This document shows positions 1-37,066 of a DNA stretch of 64,000 nucleotides, piece after piece. Within the stretch, counting starts at the first letter, position 1; each line of letters opens with the position of its first letter. This DNA comes from Nesterenkonia lacusekhoensis (GTDB lineage Bacteria; Actinomycetota; Actinomycetes; Actinomycetales; Micrococcaceae), in the NCBI RefSeq assembly GCF_017876395.1, contig NZ_JAGINX010000001.1, positions 2,046,001-2,110,000 on the forward strand, in the 5' to 3' direction. A program made the translations under genes and the position numbers. The notes beneath the pieces are model-generated. The model did not search any database. It worked only from the letters and a program-made list of their open reading frames with translations, and was not told the DNA's origin.

Positions 1-131
1 TTGATCCCGGCGATGGCCGGCACGGACTTCCGGAAGCCGAAGACAGCCCCGGAGGCCATCACGATGGTGTTGTTCGGCCCCGGAGTTCCGGCCCCGGCCA
101 CGACGAACAGGATCAGCGACAGAAAGGTCAT
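1..131 (-). CDS. LysE/RhtB-family exporter, 5' part only
   Basis: Only the first 43 codons are in the window; the gene runs off the left edge. They give a start Met, a hydrophobic first helix, the loop TPGPNNTIVMASG and then GFRKSVPAIAGI. A TPGPN loop after helix 1 is the hallmark of LysE/RhtB amino-acid exporters, six-helix inner-membrane proteins of about 200 residues driven by the proton gradient. The substrate cannot be told from this fragment. No clear ribosome binding site precedes the ATG. The ABC-F gene next door is divergent, across a 276-base gap. Confidence 0.8.
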   Translation of the reverse strand, partial: MTFLSLILFVVAGAGTPGPNNTIVMASGAVFGFRKSVPAIAGI

Positions 132-407
132 GAGGAGAATCTACTTGCTCGGGTTGTGTGGTGCGGGCGCGAATCCCGCCGGGCTGCGCTACAGTTGAAA
201 GCGTCTTTGTTCCCGACCACGAGGTGCCCGTTGAAGTTCTGAGGTCTGAGACCTGCGCAGTCTGCCCGCGACGTCCTGATGGCGTCCGGCCCGGCGCTGT
301 GCTCTCCGACCGATCAGAAGTTCACGATTCTCCGCCGTTCCGGCTGCACCCGTGGCATCTGCGCAGCGTCTCCACGCGTCATCGACCGCTTCTGCCTGTG
401 GAGACCT
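132..407. other. Divergent gap between LysE-type and ABC-F genes
   Basis: These 276 bases hold no convincing gene. A possible -10 (TACAGT, 190-195) and a 5-bp palindrome with a 3-base centre (AGGTC-TGA-GACCT, 242-254) are the only structures seen. An ABC-F leader can carry an attenuator with a short peptide gene, but no start with a good ribosome binding site and short frame was found. Confidence 0.3.
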
Positions 408-2018
408 ATGCCTGCCCCCATACTTGCCACACATTCCTTGTCCTATCGCCTGCCCGAAGGTCGCACCGTCCTGGACCAGGTCAGCTTCGGACTGACGCCC
501 GGCCGGCACGCTCTGATCGGTGACAACGGCGCCGGGAAATCGACCCTGCTGAAGCTCATCACCGGTGAGCTCACGCCCTCCTCCGGGACGGTCCAGCTCG
601 ACGGCGACCTCGCCCACCTTCAGCAGAACCCGGCCGTGGATGAACACGTCCCCGTGGCTGAGCTGCTGGGCGTCCAGCAGACGCTGGACGCCCTGGCGGC
701 CATCGAAGCCGGATCGGTGAGGGAGGAGCACTTCGACGCCGTCGGAGACGACTGGGACATCCGCGAACAGATCCTCGCCTCCCTAGCACGTGCCGGACTG
801 GAGGGGATCGAGCTCTCCCGCACGGCCAGAAGCCTCTCCGGAGGCGAGCTGATCCTGCTCAGCCTCACCGGACTCGTCCTGCGTCGACCATCGCTGCTCA
901 TCCTGGACGAACCCACCAACAACTTGGATGCGCACGCCCGACGGCGACTCAGCGACATCCTCGATCAGTTCTCAGGAACTGTCCTGGTGGTCAGTCATGA
1001 CCGTGACCTGCTCGAAGAGGTCGACTCCATCGGGGAGCTGCGCCGCGGATCGCTGCGCTGGTTCGGCGGCGGACTCTCGCTCTACGAGGAGATCATCGCC
1101 GCTGAGTCCGAAGCCGCCGCCCAACAGGTGGCCCAGGCCAAGGCTGACGTGAGGAGGCAGCGCCGCGAGCTGACCGAACAGCGGCGCAGGCACGCCGCCC
1201 GCGACCGCCAGGGGAAGCAGAGTGCCCAGAGCATGCCCAAGATCCTGGCCAATGCCCGGAGGTCCAAGGCTGAGGCCAACGCCGGCAGAGCCTCGGCGGC
1301 CCACCACACCCGGCTGGAAGAGGCGCGGAAGTCACTGGAACAGGCCGAGGAGCAGGTCCGTAAGGATCAGCAGATCCATCTCGATCTCCCTGGCGCCGAG
1401 GTGCCCAAGGGTCGCGAGGTGTTGGAGGTGGTCGGACTGCGCCCGCCGCACGGCACCGCTGTGGTCGACCTCCACCTGCGCGGACCGCAGCGCGTGGCGC
1501 TGACCGGGCCCAACGGCGTCGGGAAGACCTCAGTGCTGCGCTGCATCACGGGGGAGGCGCAGCCGCTGGAGGGCAGCGCCGGCGTCGCGGTGCCGTTCCG
1601 CTGTCTGCCGCAGAATCTGCAGCTGCTCGACGACGGTGCCAGCGTCCTGGAGAATATGCAGGGCTTCGCGCCGACCACGACGCCGGTTCAGGCTCGACAT
1701 CGACTGGCCCAGTTCCTGATCCGCGGCGACGCCGTCCACCAGCCGGCCGGGTCGCTCTCCGGCGGGGAGCGTTGGCGGGCCACACTGGCCTGCCTGCTGC
1801 TGGCCGAGCCGACGCCGCAGCTGCTCATCCTGGATGAGCCCACCAACAACCTGGACCTGGCCAGCGTGGCTCACCTGACCCACGCTCTGCAGGCCTACTC
1901 CGGTGCGCTGCTGGTGGTCAGCCACGATGAACGGTTCCTGCGTGAGCTGCAGCTGGACCAGCGGGTGGACCTGCGGGAGCCGGAGGAGATGGAGGCTCCA
2001 CCAAGAGGTGAAGTCTGA
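408..2018 (+). CDS. ABC-F family ATP-binding protein
   Basis: A 536-residue soluble protein with two tandem ATPase domains and no membrane segment, the layout of ABC-F proteins, which bind the ribosome instead of transporting. Domain 1 has Walker A GDNGAGKST (about 38-46), signature LSGGE (near 142) and Walker B LLILDEPTNNLD (near 162). Domain 2 has GPNGVGKTS (near 367), LSGGERW (near 450) and the same Walker B (near 472). A charged Arg/Gln-rich linker with coiled-coil character separates them, as in P-site-tether linkers. I chose the ATG at 408 over an upstream GTG because GGAG precedes it and the ABC fold begins there. It may protect ribosomes from antibiotics or act in translation; the sequence does not decide. 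Confidence 0.9.
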   Translation: MPAPILATHSLSYRLPEGRTVLDQVSFGLTPGRHALIGDNGAGKSTLLKLITGELTPSSGTVQLDGDLAHLQQNPAVDEHVPVAELLGVQQTLDALAAIEAGSVREEHFDAVGDDWDIREQILASLARAGLEGIELSRTARSLSGGELILLSLTGLVLRRPSLLILDEPTNNLDAHARRRLSDILDQFSGTVLVVSHDRDLLEEVDSIGELRRGSLRWFGGGLSLYEEIIAAESEAAAQQVAQAKADVRRQRRELTEQRRRHAARDRQGKQSAQSMPKILANARRSKAEANAGRASAAHHTRLEEARKSLEQAEEQVRKDQQIHLDLPGAEVPKGREVLEVVGLRPPHGTAVVDLHLRGPQRVALTGPNGVGKTSVLRCITGEAQPLEGSAGVAVPFRCLPQNLQLLDDGASVLENMQGFAPTTTPVQARHRLAQFLIRGDAVHQPAGSLSGGERWRATLACLLLAEPTPQLLILDEPTNNLDLASVAHLTHALQAYSGALLVVSHDERFLRELQLDQRVDLREPEEMEAPPRGEV

Positions 2019-2058
2019 GCCGGCACGGTGAGCGACCGGCGTCGGGCGGGGCCGCCCA

Positions 2059-2085
2059 GGTCTGATCAGACCATCTGATCAGACC
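2059..2085. terminator. Hairpin between convergent ABC-F and thiolase genes
   Basis: GGTCTGATCAG (2059-2069) pairs perfectly with CTGATCAGACC (2075-2085) over a 5-base loop. The right arm covers the thiolase stop. There is no T-run, so this is a probable bidirectional terminator of the U-less actinobacterial kind. Confidence 0.55.
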
Positions 2086-3266
2086 GTCAGGATCAGGGCG
2101 TCGCCCTGGCCTCCGCCTCCGCAGAGTCCGGCGGCTCCGGTTCCGCCGCCGCGCCGTTTGAGCTCCAGTGCGAGGTGCAGCAGCACGCGAGCGCCTGACA
2201 TTCCCACCGGATGGCCCAGGGCGATGGCGCCGCCGTTGACGTTGACCTTCTCCAGGTCGATGCCCAGCTGGCGCGACGAGGCCAGCCCGACCGCGGCGAA
2301 AGCCTCGTTGATCTCCACCAGATCCAACGATTCTGCGGCGATCCCCTGCTTGGCGCAGGCCTGGACGATGGCGTTGGCCGGCTGCAGCTGCAGGCTGGAG
2401 TCGGGGCCGGCGACCATCCCGTGGGAGCCGATCTCGGCGATCCAGCTCAGCCCCTGCTCCTGAGCCCTGCGCTTGGACATGACCAGCAGGGCGCAGGCTC
2501 CGTCGGAGATCTGCGAGGAGGTTCCGGCGGTGATGGCCCCGTCGGCGGCGAAGGCCGGGCGGAGCCGGGACATCGATTCGGCTGTGGTGCCGGGGCGGAA
2601 TCCTTCGTCCTGACTGACTGTGACCGGGTCGCCCTTGCGCTGGGGCACGTGGACGGAGACGACCTCCTCAGCGAAGAGACCCTCCTCCCAGGCGGCCGCC
2701 GCCCGCTGATGCGAGGCCGCGGCGAACTCATCCTGCTCCTCCCGGCTGACCTGGACCTCACCGGTGTTGCAGGACTCGGTCAAGGCGCCCATGGACTGGC
2801 GGGTGGCCTGGTCATACAGGGCGTCATAGGCCATGGAGTCCACCAGGGCGGTGTCCCCATAGGTGAACCCCCTGCGGGATCCGGGCAGCAGGTGCGGAGC
2901 CTGGGACATGGATTCCATGCCGCCGGCCAGGACCACCTCGCATTCGCCGGCGCGGATCATCTGGTCCGCTGTGGCCACTGCATTCAGCCCGGAGAGGCAG
3001 ACCTTATTGACCGTGATGGCCGGTATGTGGGCCGGGATCCCGGCACCCAGGGCTGCGCTGCGAGCAGGGTTCTGGCCGGAACCCGCCTGGATTACCTGCC
3101 CCATGATCACGTACTCGACCTCAGACGCCTCTGTTCCGGCCTTCTCCAGCGCTCCGCTCAGCGCGGCAGATCCCAGTTGGGCCGCGGAGAGGGAGGAGAG
3201 GCCTCCCATGAGCTTCCCGATGGGTGTGCGGGCTCCTGCGACGATCACAGTCGGTTCGGCAGACAC
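2079..3266 (-). CDS. Acetyl-CoA C-acetyltransferase (thiolase)
   Basis: A 395-residue thiolase that condenses two acetyl-CoA to acetoacetyl-CoA or cleaves 3-ketoacyl-CoA. The N-terminal nucleophile is in VNKVCLSG (Cys near 90). The His block is [10 protein letters not shown], and the C-terminal Cys block CGGGGQGDA lies close to the end. Length and motif order fit the degradative/biosynthetic AtoB-like class. An ATG 15 bases further out is possible, but GTG at 3266 has AAGGAG at ideal spacing and gives the usual [17 protein letters not shown]-terminus. It stands alone, convergent with the ABC-F gene, so the pathway cannot be told from context. Confidence 0.93.
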
Positions 3267-3394
3267 AGAGTTCTCCTTCATCGGGCGGGATCAGGCTATG
3301 TGCAGTAGACCACATTTTCAGGCGGCCCTGCACGCCCGCCCAGGGTGCGTCATGCCTGCCTCGAGGGGCCCAACCTCGCGGGACTCCCCGCTGA

Positions 3395-3976
3395 TCAGTC
3401 CAGCAGCGCCGGGTCCAGCAGGGCGAGGTAGGGATCGCCGTCGAGGTTCAGCGCCTGGGCGAAGGCCGGCTCAGTCTTGAGACCGGAGAGCTTGAGCTGG
3501 AAGATCTCCTGCCGGAACGCCGCTCCGTGACGCTGCAGCAGCACGTATTCGGCCACCAGGTGCCGGAAGGCGCGCTGCTCGGTCAGCGCCCGATCCTGCA
3601 GGAAGAACTCGATGAGGAAGCCTTGGGATTCGAAGGTCACGCACCAGGCCCCTGCCTCAGCGCTGTGCGCCCAGGCGGCGAACTGCGACAGCTGCCCGAA
3701 CTGTTCGGTCAGCTCCTCTCGGGCCGCAGCCACCTCCGAGGTGCAGACCAGCACGTCCAGATCCGATTCCGGCAGGTCCACCCCCAGCGGGATCGTCCCG
3801 GCCAAAGCCCACTCGCGCAATCCCGGAAGATCCCCGACACCGAGCTCCTCCAAGAGCGCCGCGGCCCGACGCTGGCGAGGGTTGCCCCGGTGCAGATACT
3901 CCGTGCCGAGTAGCTGAACCTCAGCCTGCTCTGCGCTGATCCGGGCAGCGGCGTACGGGCTCATCGGATCAGGCAT
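3395..3976 (-). CDS. DUF4269-family protein
   Basis: A 193-residue cytoplasmic protein. Its central GTIPLGVDLPESDLDVLV stretch resembles the G...SDLD nucleotide-binding signature of the polymerase-beta nucleotidyltransferase fold, and the arrangement matches the uncharacterised DUF4269 family (LLEELGV near the start, GTIPLG.D...SDLD, then an LIEFFLQD region). No catalytic role is known to me and I infer none. A second Met lies four codons in. The neighbouring thiolase gene is in the same direction across 128 bases, so a weak operon is possible. Confidence 0.7.
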   Translation of the reverse strand: MPDPMSPYAAARISAEQAEVQLLGTEYLHRGNPRQRRAAALLEELGVGDLPGLREWALAGTIPLGVDLPESDLDVLVCTSEVAAAREELTEQFGQLSQFAAWAHSAEAGAWCVTFESQGFLIEFFLQDRALTEQRAFRHLVAEYVLLQRHGAAFRQEIFQLKLSGLKTEPAFAQALNLDGDPYLALLDPALLD

Positions 3977-35096: not shown

Positions 35097-35300
35097 ATGA
35101 CGGACACGGCACCTGAGGTCGTCGGCGAGGAGCATTCTCTGCGCATGCGCACCCGCTCCGGGGAGCTGGAGATCAGGGGCAATGAGGTGCGCCTGCCGGA
35201 TCCCCACCAGGACCCTGTCCGCCTGGCCCCCGGCCCGTTGGCGCTCATGCGTGTGCTCGTCAAAGCACAGGGCGCAGTCCTCTCCCTCGATCACCTCTTA
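35097..35300 (+). pseudogene. Winged-helix regulator gene, 5' part, cut by an IS
   Basis: The frame from ATG 35097 encodes a polar N-terminus, then LAPGPLALMRVLVKAQGAVLSLDHLL, the first half of an OmpR/PhoB-type winged helix (Trans_reg_C), shown here only in part. It runs into the left end of the inserted element at 35301. Joining base 35300 to base 36941, which removes the element and one TA copy, restores an uncut 109-codon frame. The full-length product would be a small free-standing winged-helix protein, similar to the C-terminal DNA-binding part fused to HemD-like regulators in actinobacteria. No HemD part is seen upstream. Confidence 0.75.
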
Positions 35301-35437
35301 GGGCGTGTCTCTTATATCTGTAGTCCGGTGATACCGGCGGAGTCGACCGTGCAATCCCTATGCGATGACAGACTTGTTCTCGCCAGTGATGGTTCTGCCG
35401 CAAGGTTGACCCGCCCCGAAGATTCAAGGAGGAGACG

Positions 35438-35962
35438 ATGACTGAGATAGTGTGGACTGGCCTGGAGGAGCCCTCCCGCGAGTCATGCCGGATCGAGAGC
35501 AACCTGCATGGCGTGACCGTCGTCAGCGATATTAATGGCGGGGTCGGCGCGTGCTCGTACAAGTTGCAGATGACGGAGGCCTGGGAGTTCATCGACCTCG
35601 TAGTTCGGGCGAACGGACGCGAGCTTGAACTGCGCCTCACCGAGCGGGGATGGGAAGTTGATGGGGAGGATCGCCCTGACCTTCAAGCGGCGCGAGAGGT
35701 CGACATCTCGGTGTCCCCGCTGAGTAACACATTGCCGATCCGACGACTTGACCTCGCTGTTGGCGAGAGTGCCGACATCACCACGGCTTACATCCGGGTT
35801 CCGGAGCTCGAGGTTACGACCGATCCGCAACGGTACACGCGCACCGGCGAGAACGAGTACCTCTATGAGTCCCGCGACTCCGATTTTCGCCGGTCCATCA
35901 CCGTGGACGGGGACGGACTGGTCATCGAATACCCGGGGTTGTTCATTCGAGGAGATCGTTAG
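35438..35962 (+). CDS. Glycolipid-binding domain protein (passenger gene of the IS)
   Basis: 174 residues, fitting the whole length of the putative glycolipid-binding family (PF06475). Its hallmarks are seen in order: VDISVSPLSNTLPIRRL, LAVGESADITTAYIRVPEL, PQRYTRTGENEYLYES and the end GLVIEYPGLF. No signal peptide; the fold is thought to be a beta-barrel lipid binder, with the biological role unknown. The ATG has a strong AAGGAGGAG site. Local GC is visibly lower than in neighbours, with codons such as ATA, TTG and AAG more frequent. The stop overlaps the stop of the convergent transposase, which is intimate packing for a passenger. Confidence 0.8.
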   Translation: MTEIVWTGLEEPSRESCRIESNLHGVTVVSDINGGVGACSYKLQMTEAWEFIDLVVRANGRELELRLTERGWEVDGEDRPDLQAAREVDISVSPLSNTLPIRRLDLAVGESADITTAYIRVPELEVTTDPQRYTRTGENEYLYESRDSDFRRSITVDGDGLVIEYPGLFIRGDR

Positions 35963-36892
35963 GGAGCGTCCAGTTTGCGTAGCCAGGCGACGACGGCGCA
36001 GAGCACGGCGGTGGCCCGGTAGGTGATGGCCAGCTTTTCGTAGCGGGTGGCGATCCCGCGCCACTGTTTGGCGAGGTTGAAGTGGCGCTCGACCACGTTC
36101 CGGCCGGCATAGGTGGTCTTATCCATAGCCGGTGGTCGGCCTCCGGTTGAGCCTTTGCGTTTGCGAGCGGCTTGTTCGTCGGACTTCTGCGGGATCACTG
36201 CTCGGATGCCCCGAGCCGAGAGCATCTTGCGGATGACCCTATTGGAGTAGGCCTTATCGGCGATGACCGCATCAGGTCGTGTGCGGGGTCTTCCCGGCCC
36301 GATCCGGGGCACGCGGATGTCAACGAGGACCTCGGCCAGCACCACCCCGTCGTTGCGCTGTCCGCCGGTGAGCACGATCGACAGTGGCATCCCCTCACCG
36401 TCGACGGCTGCATGCAGTTTCGAGGAGAGTCCCCCGCGGGAGCGGCCGACCGCGTGGCCTTCTGGCTCCTGGCAGTGTTCAGCCCCGGATTTACTGTGAT
36501 TCGAGCGAGCCCCCTGTGGGCTGGTCAGGGCGGGTGGTGTTGGTCCCGTGCTGGTGAGCACGGCTGATCGTCGAGTCCACCGAAACCGTCCAATCGATTT
36601 CTCCGACGGCATCGGCCTCAGCCAGGATCTGGGCCAACACCGAATCCCAGGTGCCCTCAGCGGCATACCTGCGATGTCGCTTCCAGACTGTCTGCCAGGG
36701 CCCGAAGGCATCGCGGGGCAAGTCACGCCACGGGATCCCTGTCCTGGCGCGGTAGATCAGCCCTTCGACGATCCGGCGGTTGTCTCTGAAGGGGTGGCCT
36801 TTGCGGCCCTCATTAGAGGGCAACAGCGACTCGACCCGCGCCCACTGTTCATCGGTCAAGATCCGATACCGGGAGCTGGTAGAAGTGCTCAT
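35959..36892 (-). CDS. IS5-family transposase, two frames joined by +1 shift
   Basis: The first frame (36892 to 36491) starts MSTSTSSRYRILTDEQW, has the RTGIPWRDLP and GPWQTVWKRHRRY blocks, and holds the first catalytic Asp in SVDSTISRAHQH. The second frame continues GRSRGGLSSKLHAAVD, the second Asp in VIADKAYS and the Glu in GRNVVERHFNLAKQWRG, ending at 35959. Together they give about 310 residues, the normal length. The shift is +1 and falls at a five-G run on the coding strand (36514-36510), a credible slippage site; a chance frameshift mutation is the alternative. All DDE residues are kept. Confidence 0.85.
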
Positions 36893-36938
36893 CCCCCACC
36901 CTCACCGAGAAAACATCCCACATATGGGAGACACGCCC

Positions 36939-37066
36939 TAGCTGTGCTGCCGCACTGCGGCTCAGAGCATGCCCTGGAGATGTGGGTGTCACGGCTGCGA
37001 CGCTCCCTGCCTGACCCGCGCATGGTCCGAACCGTGGTCAAGCGCGGCTACCGCTTGGTCCTCTGA
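36939..37066 (+). pseudogene. Winged-helix regulator gene, 3' part
   Basis: After the second TA copy the frame reads AVLPHCGSEHALEMWVSRLR followed by RSLPDPRMVRTVVKRGYRLVL and TGA at 37064-37066. The recognition helix region and the beta-hairpin wing TVVKRGYRL are the end of a Trans_reg_C domain. This piece joins the fragment at 35097-35300. Without the first half it has no start codon of its own and is unlikely to be expressed as a functional protein. Confidence 0.75.

Follow-up and report, generated by a model that had tools for sequence, protein, structure and literature searches.

For insertion sequences (ISs) of the IS427 group, a published description lists elements of 832 to 865 bp with mostly 2-bp target duplications and two overlapping transposase frames (PMC3281130). 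Transporter ISs (tISs) are defined, in two further sources, by IS ends that enclose a transposase together with a passenger gene and are moved as one (PMC9330008, PMC7986276). We compared these systems with a locus in Nesterenkonia lacusekhoensis, within a stretch of 64,000 nucleotides that we call the window (contig NZ_JAGINX010000001.1, positions 2,046,001 to 2,110,000). Judging from sequence comparisons, positions 35301 to 36938 of the window are very probably an IS427-like tIS within the IS5 family. Its frameshift transposase would carry the PF06475 gene, along with the rest of the unit, into CTAG-like targets and duplicate TA there, and related ISs would have made similar captures. The IS427-group name is applied to this element by comparison with the published group description.

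Structure of the insertion unit

The features of the unit and its flanks are as follows.

35097 to 37066, plus strand: host winged-helix gene split by the unit (pieces 35097 to 35300 and 36941 to 37066), read from the joined frame
35299 to 35300: TA, left copy of the target duplication
35301 to 35320, plus strand: left terminal inverted repeat, GGGCGTGTCTCTTATATCTG, matching the right end at 17 of 20 bases
35301 to 35346, plus strand: outer left end, similar beyond the inverted repeat to the end that ordinary ISs have on their transposase side (shuffle test)
35426 to 35434, plus strand: AAGGAGGAG, likely ribosome-binding site of the passenger, ahead of its ATG (function inferred)
35438 to 35962, plus strand: passenger gene, putative glycolipid-binding protein of 174 amino acids (PF06475, Pfam E = 5.1e-42)
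35960 to 35983, plus strand: decayed inner IS end, TAGGGAGCGTCCAGTTTGCGTAGC, compared with TAGGGCGTGTCTCCTATTTGCGTAGC in ordinary elements; its TAG supplies the stop codon of the passenger
35959 to 36726, minus strand: transposase ORF B (DDE_Tnp_1; Pfam and open frame)
36491 to 36892, minus strand: transposase ORF A (DUF4096; Pfam and open frame)
36509 to 36521, minus strand: CCCACAGGGGGCT, conserved, candidate +1 frameshift region in the overlap of ORF A and ORF B, identified by its recurrence
36919 to 36938, minus strand: right terminal inverted repeat, pairing with 35301 to 35320 as its reverse complement
36939 to 36940: TA, right copy of the target duplication

The borders of the 1,638-bp unit are exact. 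Its outer ends had been predicted to match at 17 of 20 bases between duplicated TA dinucleotides, and we obtained the same count and found TA at both edges; the runner-up start for the left repeat, among starts from 35201 to 36908, matches at 12 of 20. When the flanks are joined with one TA, a single open frame runs across the join and encodes a short winged-helix protein that matches Trans_reg_C (Pfam, E = 1.1e-9). This host protein has a match in 27 of the 30 genus genomes, the best of them in Nesterenkonia cremea, where it is 84% identical and uninterrupted. Because excision of the unit with one TA restores a host frame that is intact in N. cremea, all 1,638 bp were inserted together and not just the 0.98-kb IS. 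The genome of the window contains a single copy of the unit, which weighs against the tIS reading. Foreign origin had been proposed from the low G+C content of the passenger; the passenger is indeed at 61.1%, compared with 67.4% for the window, but by itself this argues only weakly for such an origin because the transposase (64.8%) also lies below the window.

What the original prediction called a full transposase does include both DUF4096 and DDE_Tnp_1, but in two overlapping frames, and joining ORF A to ORF B takes a +1 (or -2) shift. With one mismatch allowed, the motif CCCACAGGGGGCT recurs in N. cremea and four ordinary elements as well as in the window, and the RefSeq transposase coding sequences of relatives (labeled "IS5 family transposase") have a length of 1 modulo 3 in 10 of 11 cases, which fits a +1 shift. 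Frameshifting between ORF A and ORF B is thus a candidate route to the transposase.

The passenger, as predicted, is a complete PF06475-type gene: residues 4 to 171 of 174 form the domain (143.9 bits against a cut-off of 25; profile positions 2 to 180 of 180). The overlap of the two stop codons also held, with the passenger TAG at 35960 to 35962 on the plus strand and the transposase TAA at 35961 to 35959 on the minus strand. Across 15 pairwise comparisons among six passengers, dN/dS is 0.147 to 0.289, apart from the near-identical pair from N. cremea and Saccharopolyspora, which has no synonymous change; by this measure the passenger is under purifying selection. It matches Protein Data Bank entry 2h1t (PA1994) with E = 2.7e-22. 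For PA1994, glycolipid binding was proposed from structure and context, and the same report names Asp103, Ser107, Asn111, Thr112, Gln145, and Tyr147 in an acidic pocket (PMC2954207). In our alignment to 2h1t the pocket is largely retained: all six residues are kept (as Asp89, Ser93, Asn97, Thr98, Gln131, and Tyr133, respectively), and three others are changed (Asp101 to Glu87, Thr110 to Ser96, and Pro106 to Val92). By analogy with its family, the passenger probably serves the host as a small protein that binds lipids or glycolipids.

Further copies of the unit and its passenger

The original prediction offered, as one of two readings, a transporter IS that moves a lipid-binding gene and named two or more whole units at unrelated TA-flanked sites as its proof. 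Besides the unit of the window, complete units were found at unrelated sites in N. cremea and Saccharopolyspora sp. HNM0983, which makes three. The latter two are 1,616 bp long, have TA on both sides, and carry the same PF06475 passenger. They came from a scan of genome contigs with two passenger proteins, which yielded five loci. The N. cremea and Saccharopolyspora units are identical at 1,609 of 1,616 positions, and their flanks are unrelated, short chance pieces aside; the window and N. cremea units are identical at 1,245 of 1,612 positions. The joined Saccharopolyspora flanks also read through, with a frame of at least 150 amino acids across the join. This comparative evidence shows the unit to be mobile, and recently so, the act of transposition itself being deduced. 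The N. cremea unit (loci L077 and L032) has an in-frame stop inside ORF B, which is open in the 99.6%-identical Saccharopolyspora unit; this stop weighs against the tIS reading.

The other three loci lack a complete unit. Lolliginicoccus levis has a truncated copy with the passenger (90% amino acid identity) and unit sequence 36 to 718, after which the transposase has been lost. Close passengers with no IS beside them occur in Microbacterium sp. G2-8 (locus L079, 4001 to 4558, just after a thioredoxin-like gene) and in a Propionibacterium MAG (locus L080, 1923 to 2447). The passenger thus also exists outside the unit, which weighs against the tIS reading; these two genes may be sources or escaped copies.

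The unit has DNA matches in 14 of the 30 genus genomes, but its passenger part is matched only in N. cremea (78% over 107 to 1638, plus 1 to 46). The pattern that would speak for a resident gene, namely, the IS alone elsewhere with the glycolipid gene native in relatives, was not seen: among 395 family genomes the passenger occurs at 80% identity or more in two, both within the unit, and no further passenger exceeds 50%. Four genus members have native PF06475 genes, at 34 to 38% identity to it. In broader samples, of 394 genomes from the class and 396 from the order, no full-length match to the passenger exceeded 52%, and a single 80-residue piece was 69% identical.

Spread of the passenger by plasmids was considered and rejected: its best plasmid relatives are 40% identical, and plasmids match the unit over the IS core alone, with 0 of 179 records reaching 80% coverage. 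A phage origin was likewise rejected, with no match to the passenger in phages and none of seven pattern matches in viral contigs confirmed.

Cargo-free relatives and other cargo

We assembled relatives of the element from 189 loci, 78 of which had no transposase match; 20 loci, almost all of them repeats of places already included, were left out beforehand. A scan of viral contigs with the transposase alignment yielded a single weak locus, which we did not use. From 116 transposase places, removal of 60 without a TA-flanked pair of ends and of 5 duplicates left 51 resolved elements: 42 free of cargo, 7 with cargo of five kinds, 1 with 265 bp in which no gene is annotated, and 1 artefact. The cargo-free elements are 892 to 1,109 bp long and have at most 28 bp from transposase to end. 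One of these ordinary relatives (locus L033, genome G027; 1,109 bp) has about 130 bp of extra internal DNA that breaks the match to the core.

The slot downstream of the transposase and convergent with it also holds four other kinds of cargo, each seen in one copy among the loci that the IS core or the transposase had retrieved.

L135, TA-flanked, 1,458 bp: Tautomerase_2 (Pfam); unit present once in its genome
L138, TA-flanked, 1,448 bp: cupin (Pfam)
L167 (region 1 to 3519), IS427-like, 2,170 bp: SDR oxidoreductase and MerR-type regulator (names by our own reading)
L200, Dietzia plasmid, 1,559 bp: AAA ATPase (name from the record); transposase with a deletion; in one plasmid record

Excision of L138 restores a 199-codon frame that we read as ABC permease-like. 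Two other candidates were dropped: L195, in which the annotation suggested cargo because a histidine phosphatase gene ends at the IS, proved to be an ordinary IS of 993 bp sitting at a stop codon, and the 2,427-bp pair at L196 joins two neighboring ISs and is the artefact counted above. The element with 265 bp from transposase to end (L204) is TA-flanked and lies on a Cellulosimicrobium plasmid. In the transposase tree, cargo elements stand beside cargo-free ones, with at least six state changes. The fork that unites the glycolipid units with one ordinary Nesterenkonia IS is not resolved, and the window and N. cremea units may stem from one capture or from two.

The target is CTAG in 47 of the 51 resolved elements. 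Among the 84 sides of the 42 ordinary elements, 15 have an open frame of at least 200 codons that ends at the boundary TAG, while the two remaining frames give 7 of 168 (P = 0.0005); at 150 codons or more the counts are 18/84 and 15/168 (P = 0.006), and the excess is weaker for shorter frames (25/84 and 32/168 at 100 codons or more; P = 0.04). All three P values are optimistic because related elements were treated as independent. Ordinary insertions at TAG stop codons are commoner than the frame controls.

The inner junction and alternative explanations

In ordinary Nesterenkonia relatives, TAGGGC(G/A)TGTCTCCTATTTGCGTAGCC stands straight after the transposase. At the corresponding inner end the window has TAGGGAGCGTCCAGTTTGCGTAGCC, N. 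cremea has TAAGCCGTGTCGTCTATTTCCGGAGCC, and Lolliginicoccus has TAGGGCGCGTCCGATCTGCGCAACC; the decay differs among the three, and in each the first three bases are the passenger stop codon. L167 and L200 likewise have a cargo stop made up of TA and the base that follows it in a damaged inner end, which brings this arrangement to three of the five cargo kinds. The tautomerase and cupin elements have no recognizable inner end or TAG at the junction, which weighs against the capture route set out below. At the other side of the passenger, the outer left end of the window unit was compared with six ordinary ends and gave shuffle fractions of 0.0045 to 0.195, four of the six below 0.05. This resemblance is modest and weaker than in the N. 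cremea unit, where the fraction is at most 0.0055 for five ends and 0.18 for the sixth. A distant surrogate left end, which had been suggested earlier as part of a one-off capture, thus survives in a changed form, as an IS-like outer end together with a decayed inner end at the passenger stop; the one-off capture is excluded for the whole unit.

It is conceivable, though unlikely, that the unit is mobile but that the passenger was inserted later into an existing IS, in the interval that separates the transposase stop from the left end, and was never enclosed by two ends. If one end had been split in two, an outer left end somewhat like the transposase-side end of ordinary ISs would be expected, as is seen here, but the inner junction retains both TA and a degraded inverted repeat, which a simple split would not yield twice, and the exact placement of the cargo stop at the inner TA in three of five cargo kinds also argues against it. 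We think it quite improbable that the passenger serves the element itself, as a transposition or establishment factor, instead of being cargo for the host: its conservation in all three complete units and its purifying selection would suit such a role, but 42 of 51 resolved relatives manage without any such gene, and the slot of others is occupied by unrelated enzymes. We ruled out, as having almost no probability, an ordinary 0.98-kb IS that landed beside a glycolipid gene native to the locus with a chance left repeat: relatives commonly have just the IS core and there is an inner left-end remnant at 35960, but the 17/20 TA-flanked ends, the host frame restored only by whole-unit excision, the absence of a close passenger from the rest of the family genomes covered, and two further complete units refute it.

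Proposed mechanism

The tIS reading is supported by the three units at unrelated TA sites, the restored empty-site frames, purifying selection on the passenger, the cargo-free relatives, the differing decay of the inner end, the four other cargo kinds, and the CTAG target with its stop-codon excess. A transposase made from two overlapping frames would recognize both outer ends and move the whole unit. For its origin, we infer a route that fits three of the five cargo kinds. An ordinary IS would insert at the stop codon of a gene, and the duplicated TA with the IS's own first G would re-form a TAG stop. A second IS end would lie upstream of the captured gene, and the inner end would then decay and leave the outer pair as the sole functional pair. 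Related ISs may have made similar captures with other genes.

More tentatively, and with a little less than even confidence, we suggest that an actinobacterial clade of IS427-like elements acts as a recurrent device for capturing single genes. Because the element targets CTAG and begins with G, insertion at a TAG stop would leave the stop intact; the IS could park 3' of intact genes, which would become convergent cargo once another end is present upstream and the inner end has decayed. The unit itself is a case of a very small element that has moved a gene related to neither resistance nor transposition between orders of actinobacteria. The sequence-level rule suggested here, in which a CTAG target and a terminal G that re-forms the stop let a simple IS enclose a whole gene, therefore makes the origin of tISs open to laboratory testing.

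Comparison with known systems

With the IS427 group of the IS5 family, the unit shares a DUF4096 and DDE transposase in two overlapping frames, short terminal repeats, and a TA duplication, with a core of 940 to 1,000 bp; it differs in having a decayed inner end and an additional 0.66 kb of sequence, which contains a conserved gene unrelated to transposition. In composite transposons, two IS ends lie around a host gene, and this may be how the unit began, but the unit has one transposase copy and its left side is reduced to at most about 46 bp of IS. PA1994 belongs to the same family (PF06475) as the passenger and, unlike it, is not known as mobile. In searches of the open-licence PMC literature we found no description of stop-codon capture, of several cargo kinds sharing one slot, or of an IS427-group element that carries a PF06475 gene. 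Both features of tISs are present, in that the passenger lies between functional ends and the unit occurs at unrelated sites; what sets this tIS apart is its IS427-like transposase with a PF06475 passenger, a slot that accepts several cargo kinds, and an inner end at the cargo stop.
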